Origin: a virus
IMG/VR virus record: IMGVR_UViG_3300014501_000010
Span: 1 to 38,091 of that record
Direction: 5' to 3' (one strand)
Length of the DNA: 38,091 bases
Part shown: in pieces, positions 8,763-36,683 of the stretch
Position numbering within the stretch: the first letter of the stretch is position 1
How the letters are laid out: each line of letters begins with the position of its first letter
Translations under genes and position numbers: made by a program
Notes under the pieces: model-generated
The model's database searches: none
Seen by the model: only the letters and a program-made list of their open reading frames with translations
Told to the model about the DNA's origin: nothing

Positions 8763-8933
8763 ATGGTTGATTTCTTTTACAAGTGTCTGATCGTTTTTGT
8801 GTTTGCATGGCTTTTAATGTATTGCTCTTATCCAAAGTATGAATTTCCTGAATATGGGAAAAGATGTAATAAGATAACAGGTAAATGCGAGACTTATTCT
8901 ACGGCCAGCTATAATAGGGGTTGGCATGAATAA
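8763..8933 (+). CDS. Membrane-anchored or secreted small protein, 56 aa
   Basis: The ATG follows the upstream stop directly, with GGAGG 7 bases before it. Residues about 8-21 (LIVFVFAWLLMYCSY) are hydrophobic, and LLMYC could serve as a weak lipobox. The rest is polar with two further Cys. It is the last gene of the rightward block; its stop codon overlaps the T-tract side of the terminator at 8931..8963. Function unknown. Confidence 0.65.
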   Translation: MVDFFYKCLIVFVFAWLLMYCSYPKYEFPEYGKRCNKITGKCETYSTASYNRGWHE

Positions 8934-8963
8934 AAAAGAGAGGGATGATATGCCATCCCTCTC
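8931..8963 (-). terminator. Strong rho-independent terminator of the late leftward block
   Basis: A perfect 10-bp stem, GAGAGGGATG (8938..8947) with CATCCCTCTC (8954..8963), 6-base loop. On the minus strand it is followed by TTTTTTA, a full intrinsic terminator for leftward transcription. Rightward there is no T tract after the stem, so early transcripts may pass or stop poorly. It marks the meeting point of the two convergent blocks. Confidence 0.88.
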
Positions 8964-9008
8964 ACCATAACAAATGAAAAATGCAGGAGTTTACTATGCA
9001 ACATTAAT

Positions 9009-9188
9009 TTAGAACTCGTGGGCTTTTTTGGCGAGCTTTTTCATAACCTTAGCTCCCTTTTTAGCCTCTTTCTCCTCGATGCGATCATGCTTTTTCTTTA
9101 CAGGTTTGGCATGTTTCGCATCCTTCTCATAATGCTTAGCATCTTTAGCAAGTGCCTTAGATGCCTTGGACATGATCTTCTTGTGCAT
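9009..9188 (-). CDS. Lys/Ala-rich basic protein, 59 aa
   Basis: The ATG at 9188 overlaps the stop of the gene before it (TAATG). The product is built from short Lys-rich helical units (KASKALAKDAKHYEKDAKH, later KKGAKVMKKLAKKAH), giving a histone H1-like composition. It is the last gene of the late block, 46 bases before the terminator. A DNA-coating or packaged basic protein is possible, but composition alone supports this. Confidence 0.7.
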   Translation of the reverse strand: MHKKIMSKASKALAKDAKHYEKDAKHAKPVKKKHDRIEEKEAKKGAKVMKKLAKKAHEF

Positions 9189-25634: not shown

Positions 25635-26821
25635 TTATGACGGTTGGAAGGTTGTTACATTCAGACCGCTAATCCAGTTTTGATTTGTGATGGCTCTCGC
25701 AATCGCAAATTTGGCATAGAGTTGGCTGTTTTGAGCGACACTTGATACAACCCAAGGTGGGCGATATCCAATGACGGCGGTAAAGTTGTTTTGCTCAATT
25801 TTTGCAGCAGCTTCCAGACCGTACATTGGAATCGTATAGATCGTATTGCCCTTAAGCGAGATCCCTGGTGTCTTTGCAGCCTTAGAGGATACAAAGAAAC
25901 GGAAACGGCTAATGGAGCAATATTCCTCTGGACGAATACCTTCTTGTGTTGGGTATGCTGATTTCAGCAATACGCCTTGGACTTTCTGAAGGTCTGCCGA
26001 AAGGTTTGTGTTGCAAAGCGCAATAAACGCATCACGAACACCACCAGTCGCAAACTTCAAAGTTGCTTCGAGGCTTGTTAGCATTGAACGTGCGTCATTG
26101 CCCAACAAAATGTTTTCAATGTTGTTCACATCGTTCAAACTTATGTTACTAGGCTGGTCGCCATTCAGGCCGCCAGTCGCATTGATATAAGATCATTTCT
26201 GTTACTTTTATGACCTGGTTTCCCAGGCGGGGCAACCTCTTCGGATCACCCTCACCATATCTCTATGGTGTTCAGACTATCGCACCCCCTTTCGGGGTCT
26301 TCTCACTTAGTCGTTCACGGTGGCTTTCGCCTTCCGCCCTGTCTTCCGTCTGCTTAAGCAGCGAGGAGTTCCAAGTCAATCAGAGAAGATTTAACGTCCG
26401 CATCACATTTTACGGACGAAGAGAATAGATCGCGCATTAGGAGATCTTCTTTTTCACGAAGCCACTGGCCCAAGAGCGCAGTAAATTTCGTAAGAGTCTT
26501 GCTGTTTTCCCACAAGACGACTTGTTCGTTTGTAACGATAGATTTAGCGTAGATTTCCATTGTCGCGTCGATATCGGTACGAACAGGAACTTCAGAAGCT
26601 GGATCGATACCTGAACCATCAAGTTGACCGCCTTCAGTGGACAAGCGTTCGAAACGTGACATACGGGTAGTTTTGCCGATGTAGCTTTCTGCGTGGTGTA
26701 GGTCAACCCCAAATGAGTGGATGAGATTGAACATTGGTGTGGACAATAGGTCTTCCGATGCCTGTACAGGCAATTCGGGAGCCATATTTTGGATGCTAGT
26801 AATACCAGTCGAAAATGACAT
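25635..26821 (-). CDS. Major capsid protein (N4 gp56-like), split by a group I intron; coding join 26821..26412 + 26193..25635
   Basis: The mature message would encode 322 aa: exon 1 is 410 nt (136 codons plus GT), exon 2 is 559 nt (A plus the rest), together exactly 323 codons with stop. Exon 1 carries ESYIGKTTRMSRFERL and PVRTDIDATMEIYAKSIVTN, exon 2 SYINATGGLNGD, NIENILLGNDARSMLTSL and the C-terminal KGNTIYTIPMYGLEAA. The order and phrases match N4 gp56-type HK97-fold capsids, in which the TGG segment follows directly on the MRDL helix, as it does here only after splicing. Without splicing, translation stops at a TAA in the intron (26354) and gives a 155-aa fragment. AAAGAGG 5 bases before the ATG lies within a hairpin. 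Confidence 0.88.
26194..26411 (-). other. Group I self-splicing intron, 218 nt, in the major capsid gene
   Basis: P1: exon end CGTCCGT pairs with intron GCGGACG (26404..26396 region), the last pair being the required U-G wobble. P10: exon 2 start ATC pairs with GAT just 5' of that guide. P3: TCTTCTC with GAGAAGA. P7: GACTA with TAGTC. P8: ACCCC-GAAAG-GGGGT. P9: CACCAT/ATGGTG. Further hairpins are CTGC-TTAA-GCAG, GGC-GAAA-GCC and CCTGG-GAAA-CCAGG. The last intron base is G. The order of elements is the canonical one. There is no open frame for a homing endonuclease, so it is a minimal ribozyme. Confidence 0.88.
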
Positions 26822-29793: not shown

Positions 29794-29881
29794 GGCTCTT
29801 AGTGGGATTCGAACCCACAACCGTCTGGGCTGAGCTTTACCCCATAACCTAGATGCTCTTCCAGTTGAGTCTATAAGAGCC
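29794..29881 (-). tRNA. tRNA-like gene, enlarged anticodon loop, identity unresolved (possibly His-like or degenerate)
   Basis: The acceptor stem GGCTCTTA/TAAGAGCC has 8 pairs including G-1:C73, a tRNA-His hallmark. T8 A9, the A14, G18-G19 and A21 positions, and a perfect T arm (GTGGG-TTCGAAT-CCCAC) are all canonical. Two defects stand out: an extra A in the 5' D-stem strand (G-A-CTC against GAGC), and 20 bases between TCTAG and CCAGA where 7 are expected, with an A-C mismatch in that stem. No anticodon can be assigned with confidence; TTATGGG in the loop would give ATG (His). It may be a decaying or a non-translational tRNA. Confidence 0.6.
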
Positions 29882-34910: not shown

Positions 34911-35894
34911 TCATTTCTCATAGTTTAGATTGATTACTTTGAAGCTAAGGGGTTTTCCATTAAAATTGTGTTGTGAGCGTACGACAACACCTTCACGCTG
35001 TTTGCCATTCCTGTATGTACCTTCTCCTAATAATAGGATTTTTTCAAATGGTATATCATATGAATTCCCAAGATCAATCGGTTTACACATACCTATTCCG
35101 ATTAATACACATAAATCGATTAATTCTCTTACTTCAAGATAACGATGTTCGTCAATCTTATATCCCGAGAATACAAGGCCTATAATATGAGGCCACCCCA
35201 TAGGGTTGCTTTGAATGCCGGGTCCACAAGTTTCCCATTGGATAGCAATCCCCTCGGGTAGTTTTTCCTCTAGTTCGTATTGTATAGCTATTTTCCAATA
35301 GCCGTTATCCGGATTGCGTTCAATCTCCCAATTACGACTGCATACTCCGAATTGACTTTTGTATTTGTATGCTGTTGTGCTGCTGCCATCTGCTTTTTCT
35401 GTTATGTAATAGGGTTGTCCTTGTAGTCTTTCTATTGCCTCTTGGCCTTCAATGTTTTGGTAATTTGGCTCGTCGGTTTTAGGAATAAAGCTGGGGAATG
35501 GGCCTTTGGCAATGCCGTTGAGATGCGCCGGAATAGGTTTGTGGTATTTTTTAACGCCTGTCCAGCTTGTTAAGTCAAACCCTACATTTTCAGGTCCTTC
35601 ATATGGCATAATTAGTACTTCAGACGGTGCTCCCCTGAAGCGTCGCATCTTCACGCGCCAATTGCTTGATTCCATGAATTTCATGTCCTCATTAGGTGGT
35701 ATTAGGGAGTCTGGAAGATAAACAAGACATAGGTTTCCGACAGAGAAATCCTGCTTACGGACAATACCCCTCCACTTGCCACCGGCACCACATACCACGG
35801 TTGCGCATACAATGAAGTCTGCGCCCTCTATGACGTCTATAGCGACGATCTTGCCGACATAGACCAAACCTTTATCTTCGTTCTTATTCAACAT
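34911..35894 (-). CDS. Rnl5-type (DRB0094-like) RNA ligase, 327 aa
   Basis: This ATP-dependent ligase seals RNA nicks. The N-terminal OB-fold domain (about 10-70: GKIVAIDVIEGADFIVCATV, then KQDFSVGNLCLVYLPDSLIP) before the nucleotidyltransferase core is specific to the Rnl5 family of Deinococcus DRB0094. Motif I is EKADGSS with K167 as the AMP-accepting lysine; motif III is around AIQWETCGPG; motif IV is EGVVVRS (301-307); motif V is SFKVINL (317-323). All key residues are present. The start has GGAGG 4 bases upstream and overlaps the gene before it by 11 bases. It probably repairs RNA, perhaps tRNA cleaved by host defences. Confidence 0.9.
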   Translation of the reverse strand: MLNKNEDKGLVYVGKIVAIDVIEGADFIVCATVVCGAGGKWRGIVRKQDFSVGNLCLVYLPDSLIPPNEDMKFMESSNWRVKMRRFRGAPSEVLIMPYEGPENVGFDLTSWTGVKKYHKPIPAHLNGIAKGPFPSFIPKTDEPNYQNIEGQEAIERLQGQPYYITEKADGSSTTAYKYKSQFGVCSRNWEIERNPDNGYWKIAIQYELEEKLPEGIAIQWETCGPGIQSNPMGWPHIIGLVFSGYKIDEHRYLEVRELIDLCVLIGIGMCKPIDLGNSYDIPFEKILLLGEGTYRNGKQREGVVVRSQHNFNGKPLSFKVINLNYEK

Positions 35895-36099
35895 CGACCT
35901 CCTCTTCTATACGTTTCGTGGGTTGATAAGCATATTTACATGTATATTCTTTAAATGAATGACATCTTGGGCAGAAAAATAGAAATGAGTTAAATTCAGA
36001 CATTGGCATTGTCCCTTCTTTTTCCCATTCATTTATCGTTATTACTCCTTGCTGTTTCCAGTTATGACCCATAAACCAGCAAATTATTCGATTAATCAT
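35884..36099 (-). CDS. DUF1660-like small zinc-binding protein, 71 aa
   Basis: The N-terminus IICWFMGHNWKQQG followed after a spacer by FFCPRCHSFKEY resembles DUF1660-type prophage proteins ('C...GH.W ... C.RCG'). One Cys-His pair and one CPRC knuckle could bind one zinc. ATGA overlap with the recombinase gene. The family function is unknown. Confidence 0.7.
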   Translation of the reverse strand: MINRIICWFMGHNWKQQGVITINEWEKEGTMPMSEFNSFLFFCPRCHSFKEYTCKYAYQPTKRIEEEVDVE

Positions 36100-36683
36100 A
36101 GTTGTATCGGTGTTCGTAAGGCTGTCTTGTCTAAGTATCGATATAAAGTAAAACGTGAAATTCCAAGCTCTCTTGCCATTTTACTTTTGGGTAATCGTGT
36201 CTTAAGTAGCTCCTCAAGCTTGGTCATTCGTTCGAAAGTCATTTTACTTTTTCCGCCTTTGTATTTCCCCTCTTTTTTCGCTTTGTTGATACCGATACGC
36301 TGTCTTTCTTTTGCAAGTTGGGAAAAGAAGTGAATAAAGCTTTTCATCATGTCGTATGCAAGCTTTGACATGAGGTCATTCTTTTTACCTAGGATTATGC
36401 CTTCTCGGACGAAATGAATCTGTACGCCCTTCTTAAGCAGGAATTCGACTATTTCATCCAAGTCGTAGCCATTACGCCCCAGGCGGTCCATACATTCTAC
36501 ATAAACAATATCATCTTCTCGGACGTATGCCTTAAGACTTTGAAGCTGCTGCCGATTTACGGCACTGTAACCAGACTCGATGTCAACGAATGTTTTATCA
36601 AGTTCGATCCCTATAAGCTGACTCTCCGGGTTCTGTTCGTTTGTGCTTACTCTTTTGTAGCCGACTCGTTTTCCAATTCCCAT
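36096..36683 (-). CDS. Serine recombinase (resolvase/invertase family), 195 aa
   Basis: A small serine recombinase that cuts and rejoins DNA at two short sites. YKRVSTNEQNPESQL contains the nucleophile S13; VYVECMDRLGRNGYDL supplies R67 and R70; ERQRIGINKAKKEGKYKGGK is the standard hinge; and the C-terminal helix-turn-helix KSKMARELGISRFTLYRYL (about 166-184) binds the site. The length matches resolvases and Hin-like invertases, not large integrases. It could invert a tail segment, resolve genome multimers or drive integration; no inverted pair of sites was found by eye. Confidence 0.93.
   Translation of the reverse strand: MGIGKRVGYKRVSTNEQNPESQLIGIELDKTFVDIESGYSAVNRQQLQSLKAYVREDDIVYVECMDRLGRNGYDLDEIVEFLLKKGVQIHFVREGIILGKKNDLMSKLAYDMMKSFIHFFSQLAKERQRIGINKAKKEGKYKGGKSKMTFERMTKLEELLKTRLPKSKMARELGISRFTLYRYLDKTALRTPIQL

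Follow-up and report, generated by a model that had tools for sequence, protein, structure and literature searches.

The window analyzed here, a viral stretch of 38,091 nt from an IMG/VR record, contains a major capsid gene in two pieces lying in different frames, raising the question of whether the gene is broken or whether the 218 nt between the pieces are removed from its RNA. This gene runs on the minus strand, with exon 1 at 26821..26412 (codons 1–136 and the first two nucleotides of the junction codon), the 218-nt insert at 26411..26194, and exon 2 at 26193..25635 (the rest of residue 137, residues 138–322 and the stop). These exons were assigned from their ORFs, a splice test and comparison with uninterrupted relatives, to the N-terminal part of which exon 1 is homologous. 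The insert starts with AAAAUGUGAU, ends with ...GUAACAGAAAUG and has no ORF of its own. In the unspliced frame a stop is reached 18 codons inside it, and excision of 26194..26411 fuses 410 nt and 559 nt to a 969-nt ORF, giving the in-frame product of 322 aa that had been predicted. Scanning all length-keeping boundary pairs within 40 nt revealed that only offsets 0 and +1 give the sequence of the relatives (DLFSSSVSYINATGG). The two offsets yield an identical mRNA; of the two, offset 0 alone has a U before the intron and a G at its end, as the group I rule requires. The insertion point is in codon 137, between bases 2 and 3 (GT, then A), and the last intron nucleotide, placed by empty-site comparison, is a G (omega-G, 26194). 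Based on the boundary scan and frame restoration, the predicted coordinates 26194–26411 are exact.

A search of IMG/VR with the spliced protein gave 248 matching loci. In the best 80 of these, the gene is an unbroken 966-bp ORF with 88–98% amino acid identity, and all 80 lack a gap at the junction, with a DNA identity of about 71–82%. This shows that the 218 nt were inserted precisely, and that the gene they entered is strongly constrained at the protein level. The possibility that homologous capsids translate the segment was also checked, and none of the 80 relatives contains it.

The identity of the protein as a major head protein came through its relatives, 11 of 29 close ones matching phrog_1357 'major head protein' (best 1.4e-9). 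The spliced window protein itself had no direct PHROG or Pfam match at threshold, and nothing beyond phrog_1357 was retrieved when it or its relatives were searched by sequence against PDB, Pfam and PHROG. The genes come in the order terminase, portal, other ORFs and capsid, in keeping with this identity. The closest known phage capsid is the 'major capsid protein' of MW202426 (23%, E = 6e-4), which is the sole such similarity. No fold evidence is claimed, because an AlphaFold model from 29 close relatives had a pLDDT of 31 and was unusable. The label of major head protein thus stands, and the 'N4 gp56-like' part of the earlier description is unconfirmed.

We conclude that 26194..26411 is almost certainly a group I self-splicing intron, free of a homing endonuclease gene (HEG), in this phage major head gene. 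The explanation takes in three observations: the precise insertion, the restored frame and a conserved, covarying ribozyme core. All coordinates below are on the minus strand. P1 (26395..26418) pairs exon CGUCCGU (26418–26412) with the guide GCGGACG (26401–26395) and places a U.G pair at the 5' splice site. The other helices follow the order of group I, with a P3/P7 pseudoknot, P4–P6 enclosed and P8 between P3 and P7. P3 (26298..26389) pairs 26389–26383 with 26304–26298, and P4 (26338..26375) pairs 26375–26372 with 26341–26338 and has P5 inside. P6 (26317..26337) pairs 26337–26334 with 26320–26317. The guanosine-binding helix P7 (26273..26313) is formed by CGACUA (26313–26308) and UAGUC(U)G (26279–26273) across P3, and P8 (26286..26297) by 26297–26294 and 26289–26286. 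J8/7 (26280..26285), assessed with alignment A1 and the L217 and L222 sequences, is GUGCGA; the family form is A/G-U/A-G-C-G-A, mostly A(U/A)GCGA, so the window intron has a G for the first A of the A-N-G-N-N-A form. Toward the 3' end are the P9 hairpin (26253..26270), the P9.1 hairpin with a conserved GAAGA loop (26230..26251), and a P9.2 hairpin (26214..26227) that is read from sequence and folding and is poorly aligned. At UGAUUGA, J3/4 is longer than usual, P4 is short, and 3 nt (AGU) separate the P7 5' strand from the P3 3' strand, about the same as in aligned members. The folding energy is below that of all 200 shuffles (z = -3.65). All of P1 (with the U-G at the 5' splice site), P3, P7, P8 and P9 were thus found in the sequence as originally proposed. 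P10 is present as well, as AUC in exon 2 (26191..26193) with GAU (26404–26402), yet with 3 bp, as judged from sequence, it is weak as the element that fixes the 3' site.

By this anatomy, P1 would present a U.G pair at the site of 5' cleavage, a guanosine held in P7 would attack 3' of that U, and the freed exon 1 would attack after omega-G 26194, joining GU to AUCUUAU to give the 322-aa capsid. Splicing is only predicted, as are self-catalysis, its dependence on GTP and an effect on capsid output.

Covariation was evaluated with 48 dereplicated family introns. In this alignment, pairing reaches 93.7% in the proposed helices, compared to 37–47% for slid pairings, and 263 double-sided compensatory cells are seen, versus 83 ± 8 in shuffles and 32–82 in slid pairings. 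Covariation backs P3 (3 of 7 pairs covary strongly, with both sides changed in 16–23 of the 48 sequences), P6 (3 of 4 pairs, 100% paired), P8 (all 4 pairs), P9 (3 of the 4 pairs tested) and P9.1 (double-sided change in 7 of 8 pairs, 80% of cells paired), and also P5 in a second alignment (A2). P4 is paired in 48/48 with a U-G/U-A change at one pair. P7 is likewise paired in 48/48 and nearly invariant, with one compensatory A-U to U-A change among the 48 sequences, so its pairing rests on this change and its fixed position. The column alignment cannot judge P1, because every intron copy has its own guide. The guides can be compared at one shared site: the window, L027 and L077 have introns at the same amino acid position, their exon codons differ, and the guide matches each coding (exon/guide CGUCCGU/GCGGACG, UUCGGU/GCCGAA and CGAGCGU/GCGCUCG, respectively).

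A translational bypass like that of T4 gene 60, with ribosomes hopping the 218 nt and no RNA splicing, would likewise yield a continuous protein from the interrupted gene. We consider it barely credible here, as bypass needs no covarying group I core, P3/P7 pseudoknot, U.G at the 5' site or omega-G, all of which are present, and the same RNA family occurs in unrelated genes with differing flanking codons.

For the intron itself, a search with the Rfam model RF00028 had been suggested, and lack of a match had been named as a refutation. The outcome was negative: RF00028 had no match in the window, including a search over 301 bases with E allowed up to 10 and a loose genome search. The model gave 59–106 bits to the introns of Twortvirinae, CRP-7 and JCL1032 and 105 bits to that of T4 nrdD. 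In the same runs as these controls it missed family members in CRP-118, Lak-B1, L005, L028, L052, L061 and L077, and six more family loci scanned beside T4. A sub-threshold match of 23 bits, perhaps to the intron, was detected on the contig of L027. Given that RF00028 is blind to the scanned family loci while the T4 and Twort-type controls are found, its negative result reflects a lack of model sensitivity and not the absence of an intron.

We built a covariance model (R1) from 42 introns, most of them in unrelated genes, leaving out those of the window, L026, L027 and L099. R1 detected these four at 139–146 bits, the window intron scoring 144 bits (E = 1.7e-32) over 26229–26392, and found nothing when run on 10 empty-site loci. 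Its best matches beyond the family were weak (15–22 bits, E = 0.004–0.2; introns of Staphylococcus phages, JCL1032 and CRP-7), and the T4 nrdD intron was given 12 bits. A capsid gene that is truly split or broken (two proteins, a pseudogene or an assembly error), with the 218 nt as filler, would be in line with each half being open alone (ORFs of 155 and 167 aa) and with splicing being predicted only. Such a gene is very improbable, given the score of the insert against a model from other introns, the related introns at the same site on other contigs (L027 and L077), the exact residues of 80 relatives restored by excision, and the covarying structure. The empty-site alleles, the covariation and the independent covariance model together bear out the proposal of a group I intron in a phage major head gene.

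The window intron belongs to a large family. DNA similarity led to a split P22-type coat gene in MW202674; a gene with a like sequence in Desulfovibrio phage 7757 looks, on reading, like one for an intein-containing anaerobic ribonucleotide reductase. The core pattern GTGAACGACTAANTGAGA was found in at least 120 IMG/VR stretches, which identified the family independently of RF00028, and two further patterns brought the count by motif to at least 338 introns (near-duplicates included). Host genes were assigned by clustering the flanking proteins and matching representatives to PHROG. The hosts were P22-type coat (phrog_283; at least 61 introns), another major head family (phrog_9953; at least 45), the window-type capsid (phrog_1357), portal (phrog_156; at least 14), tape measure (at least 10), a family without PHROG match (at least 26), and ribonucleotide reductase and tail genes (a few). 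The family is thus concentrated in virion head genes, mainly unrelated major head genes. With an iterated profile, at least 129 of the at least 338 introns adjoin window-type capsid coding, at 15 or more profile positions, and intron gain in this gene is therefore a recurrent event. Single genes or contigs with at least three family introns were also observed (L061, L287, L334, L367 and L275).

Outside viral contigs, a comparison with plasmids gave no DNA match. The exact core motif was detected at 11 loci in bacterial genomes (84,980 species), of which only L208 scored well with R1 (114 bits). As the bacterial motif loci are mostly unconfirmed by the family model, a bacterial reservoir is not claimed. 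Four contigs from one KSB1 bacterial MAG (L205, L206, L211 and L212) have the exact 17-base core motif and no family-model score, and perhaps represent another intron type.

Among known introns, a blastn search with a family-like consensus matched Twortvirinae, JCL1032 and Lak phages over J8/7-P7-P9. The introns of Twortvirinae (Staphylococcus phages 110 and phiSA_BS1) and of the tape measure gene of Lactobacillus phage JCL1032, which we take to be of subgroup IA2, have a near-identical J8/7-P7-P9 (AUG..AUAGUCUGAAC..AUGGAAACAU). Like the window family they have the P3–P9 order and are sited in phage protein genes, and the Twortvirinae introns share its 3' end GUAACAAAAUUG. They differ in the P7.1/P7.2 region, which follows the 5' strand of P7 and precedes the 3' strand of P3 and in which they have a long extra sequence where the window family has 3 nt, and in J8/7, which is AUGAUA in the Twort-type introns versus (A/G)(U/A)GCGA. 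Unlike them, the window family has a conserved UGAUUGA J3/4 and no RF00028 match. P7.1 and P7.2 are class-defining features of IA introns (PMC3984707), and the window intron lacks the P7.1 (and P7.2) between P7 and P3 by which subgroup IA is recognized. Because of the Twort-like J8/7-P7-P9, without P7.1/P7.2 and with GCGA for GAUA, we label the window element a group I intron that appears IA-related from its sequence. The family as a whole is a large set of compact phage introns that appear related to subgroup IA2 and are without P7.1/P7.2. The T4 nrdD intron has a group I core with P7 GACUA/UAGUC, as in the window; it is of group IA and carries I-TevII, whereas the window intron has no HEG.

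Two further sets of introns were compared by description. The first is in mycobacteriophages of cluster J, in the major capsid gene of LittleE, as in the window, and a tail gene of BAKA (PMC3706429). These also have a U before and a G at the end of the intron, and the BAKA copy is without HEG; their splicing was demonstrated by RT-PCR, and the intron type was inferred loosely (PMC3706429). The second, from the Jug huge phages (PMC12363816), consists of small group I introns that average ~206 nt, are many per genome and are in phage protein genes. Those were found with subtype models, not Rfam, and their splicing was seen in metatranscriptomes (PMC12363816). The host genes named for them are terL, nrdD and DNA polymerase, that of the window being a major head gene. 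Introns of this kind are known; as a variant of them, the family is distinct, abundant and poorly modelled.

No HEG was recognized in the window proteins scanned, so the absence of a homing endonuclease holds true of the window copy; relatives do carry such genes. LAGLIDADG-like genes antisense to the capsid gene were recognized by motif, by eye, in the P5/P6-side loop of L059, L318, L043, L344, L013, L028 and L272, and one sense-strand LAGLIDADG in the family was confirmed by Pfam. Other relatives have a GIY-YIG gene in P8 or an HNH gene 3' of P7. Long P5/P6-side gaps were found in ~60 motif-defined members, some being neighbouring introns and some real insertions. These genes in relatives, and the introns at the same site in the window, L027 and L077, are consistent with an intron whose endonuclease was lost, leaving it either immobile or dependent on a relative's nuclease for homing in trans; the chances of this appear about even. 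The family nevertheless occupies at least 15 positions in the capsid family and several unrelated genes. The nearest core relative of the capsid introns (n = 72) is usually at another site of the gene (48), otherwise at the same site (13) or in another gene (11), and site-specific homing alone cannot account for the spread.

If the family reached new sites through reverse splicing into late mRNAs, which are abundant, its bias to head genes, most of the hosts, would be explained. Such a route would also predict what is seen in L011, where two introns of one gene with 93% alike cores are at different sites whose exon flanks share little beyond the 7-nt target AGACGCU. Across unrelated genes, however, introns sharing the target hexamer are no more alike in their cores (364 of 500 permutations reach the observed value), and other close pairs, such as that of L069, have entirely different guides, making this route rather doubtful. 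In L069 (6866–7538), the two introns of one gene have cores 89% alike and P1 guides that are wholly unlike, each pairing along its full length with its own exon; the guide would have changed fast. A broader proposal, which we offer tentatively as a possibility, is that the family is an unrecognized group I subgroup from the IA line that lost P7.1/P7.2, escapes the Rfam model, specializes in head genes and is colonizing further positions in them, with reverse splicing into abundant late mRNA perhaps acting alongside endonuclease homing.

Phage group I introns have been described as mostly located in genes of nucleotide and DNA metabolism, with reliance on Rfam/GISSD models given by the authors as the main limit (PMC11878797), and a large 2025 intron database likewise started from the Rfam model (PMC11835236). 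As the family is abundant, unseen by the Rfam model and chiefly in major head genes, many 'broken' capsid calls in viral contigs are likely intact genes, the annotation of which a new covariance model would mend. The many insertion points, with intronless and intron-bearing close relatives, make the spread to new sites directly testable, and the same gene family makes testable how splicing copes with very high expression.

Several other features were detected in the record, all on the minus strand. A tRNA-like gene at 29794–29880 (RF00005, 37.9 bits), missed by ARAGORN, has acceptor, D and T arms that look normal and an anticodon arm that is ~13 nt over-long. At 8926–9031, a strong hairpin followed by a U run, with a weak L20 leader match (E = 0.05, below gathering), is probably a terminator. 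An RNA ligase (PF09414) with a PHA02142 OB-fold domain is encoded at 34911–35894, and a DNA invertase/resolvase gene (phrog_125, PF00239) is at 36096–36683, close to the end of the record.
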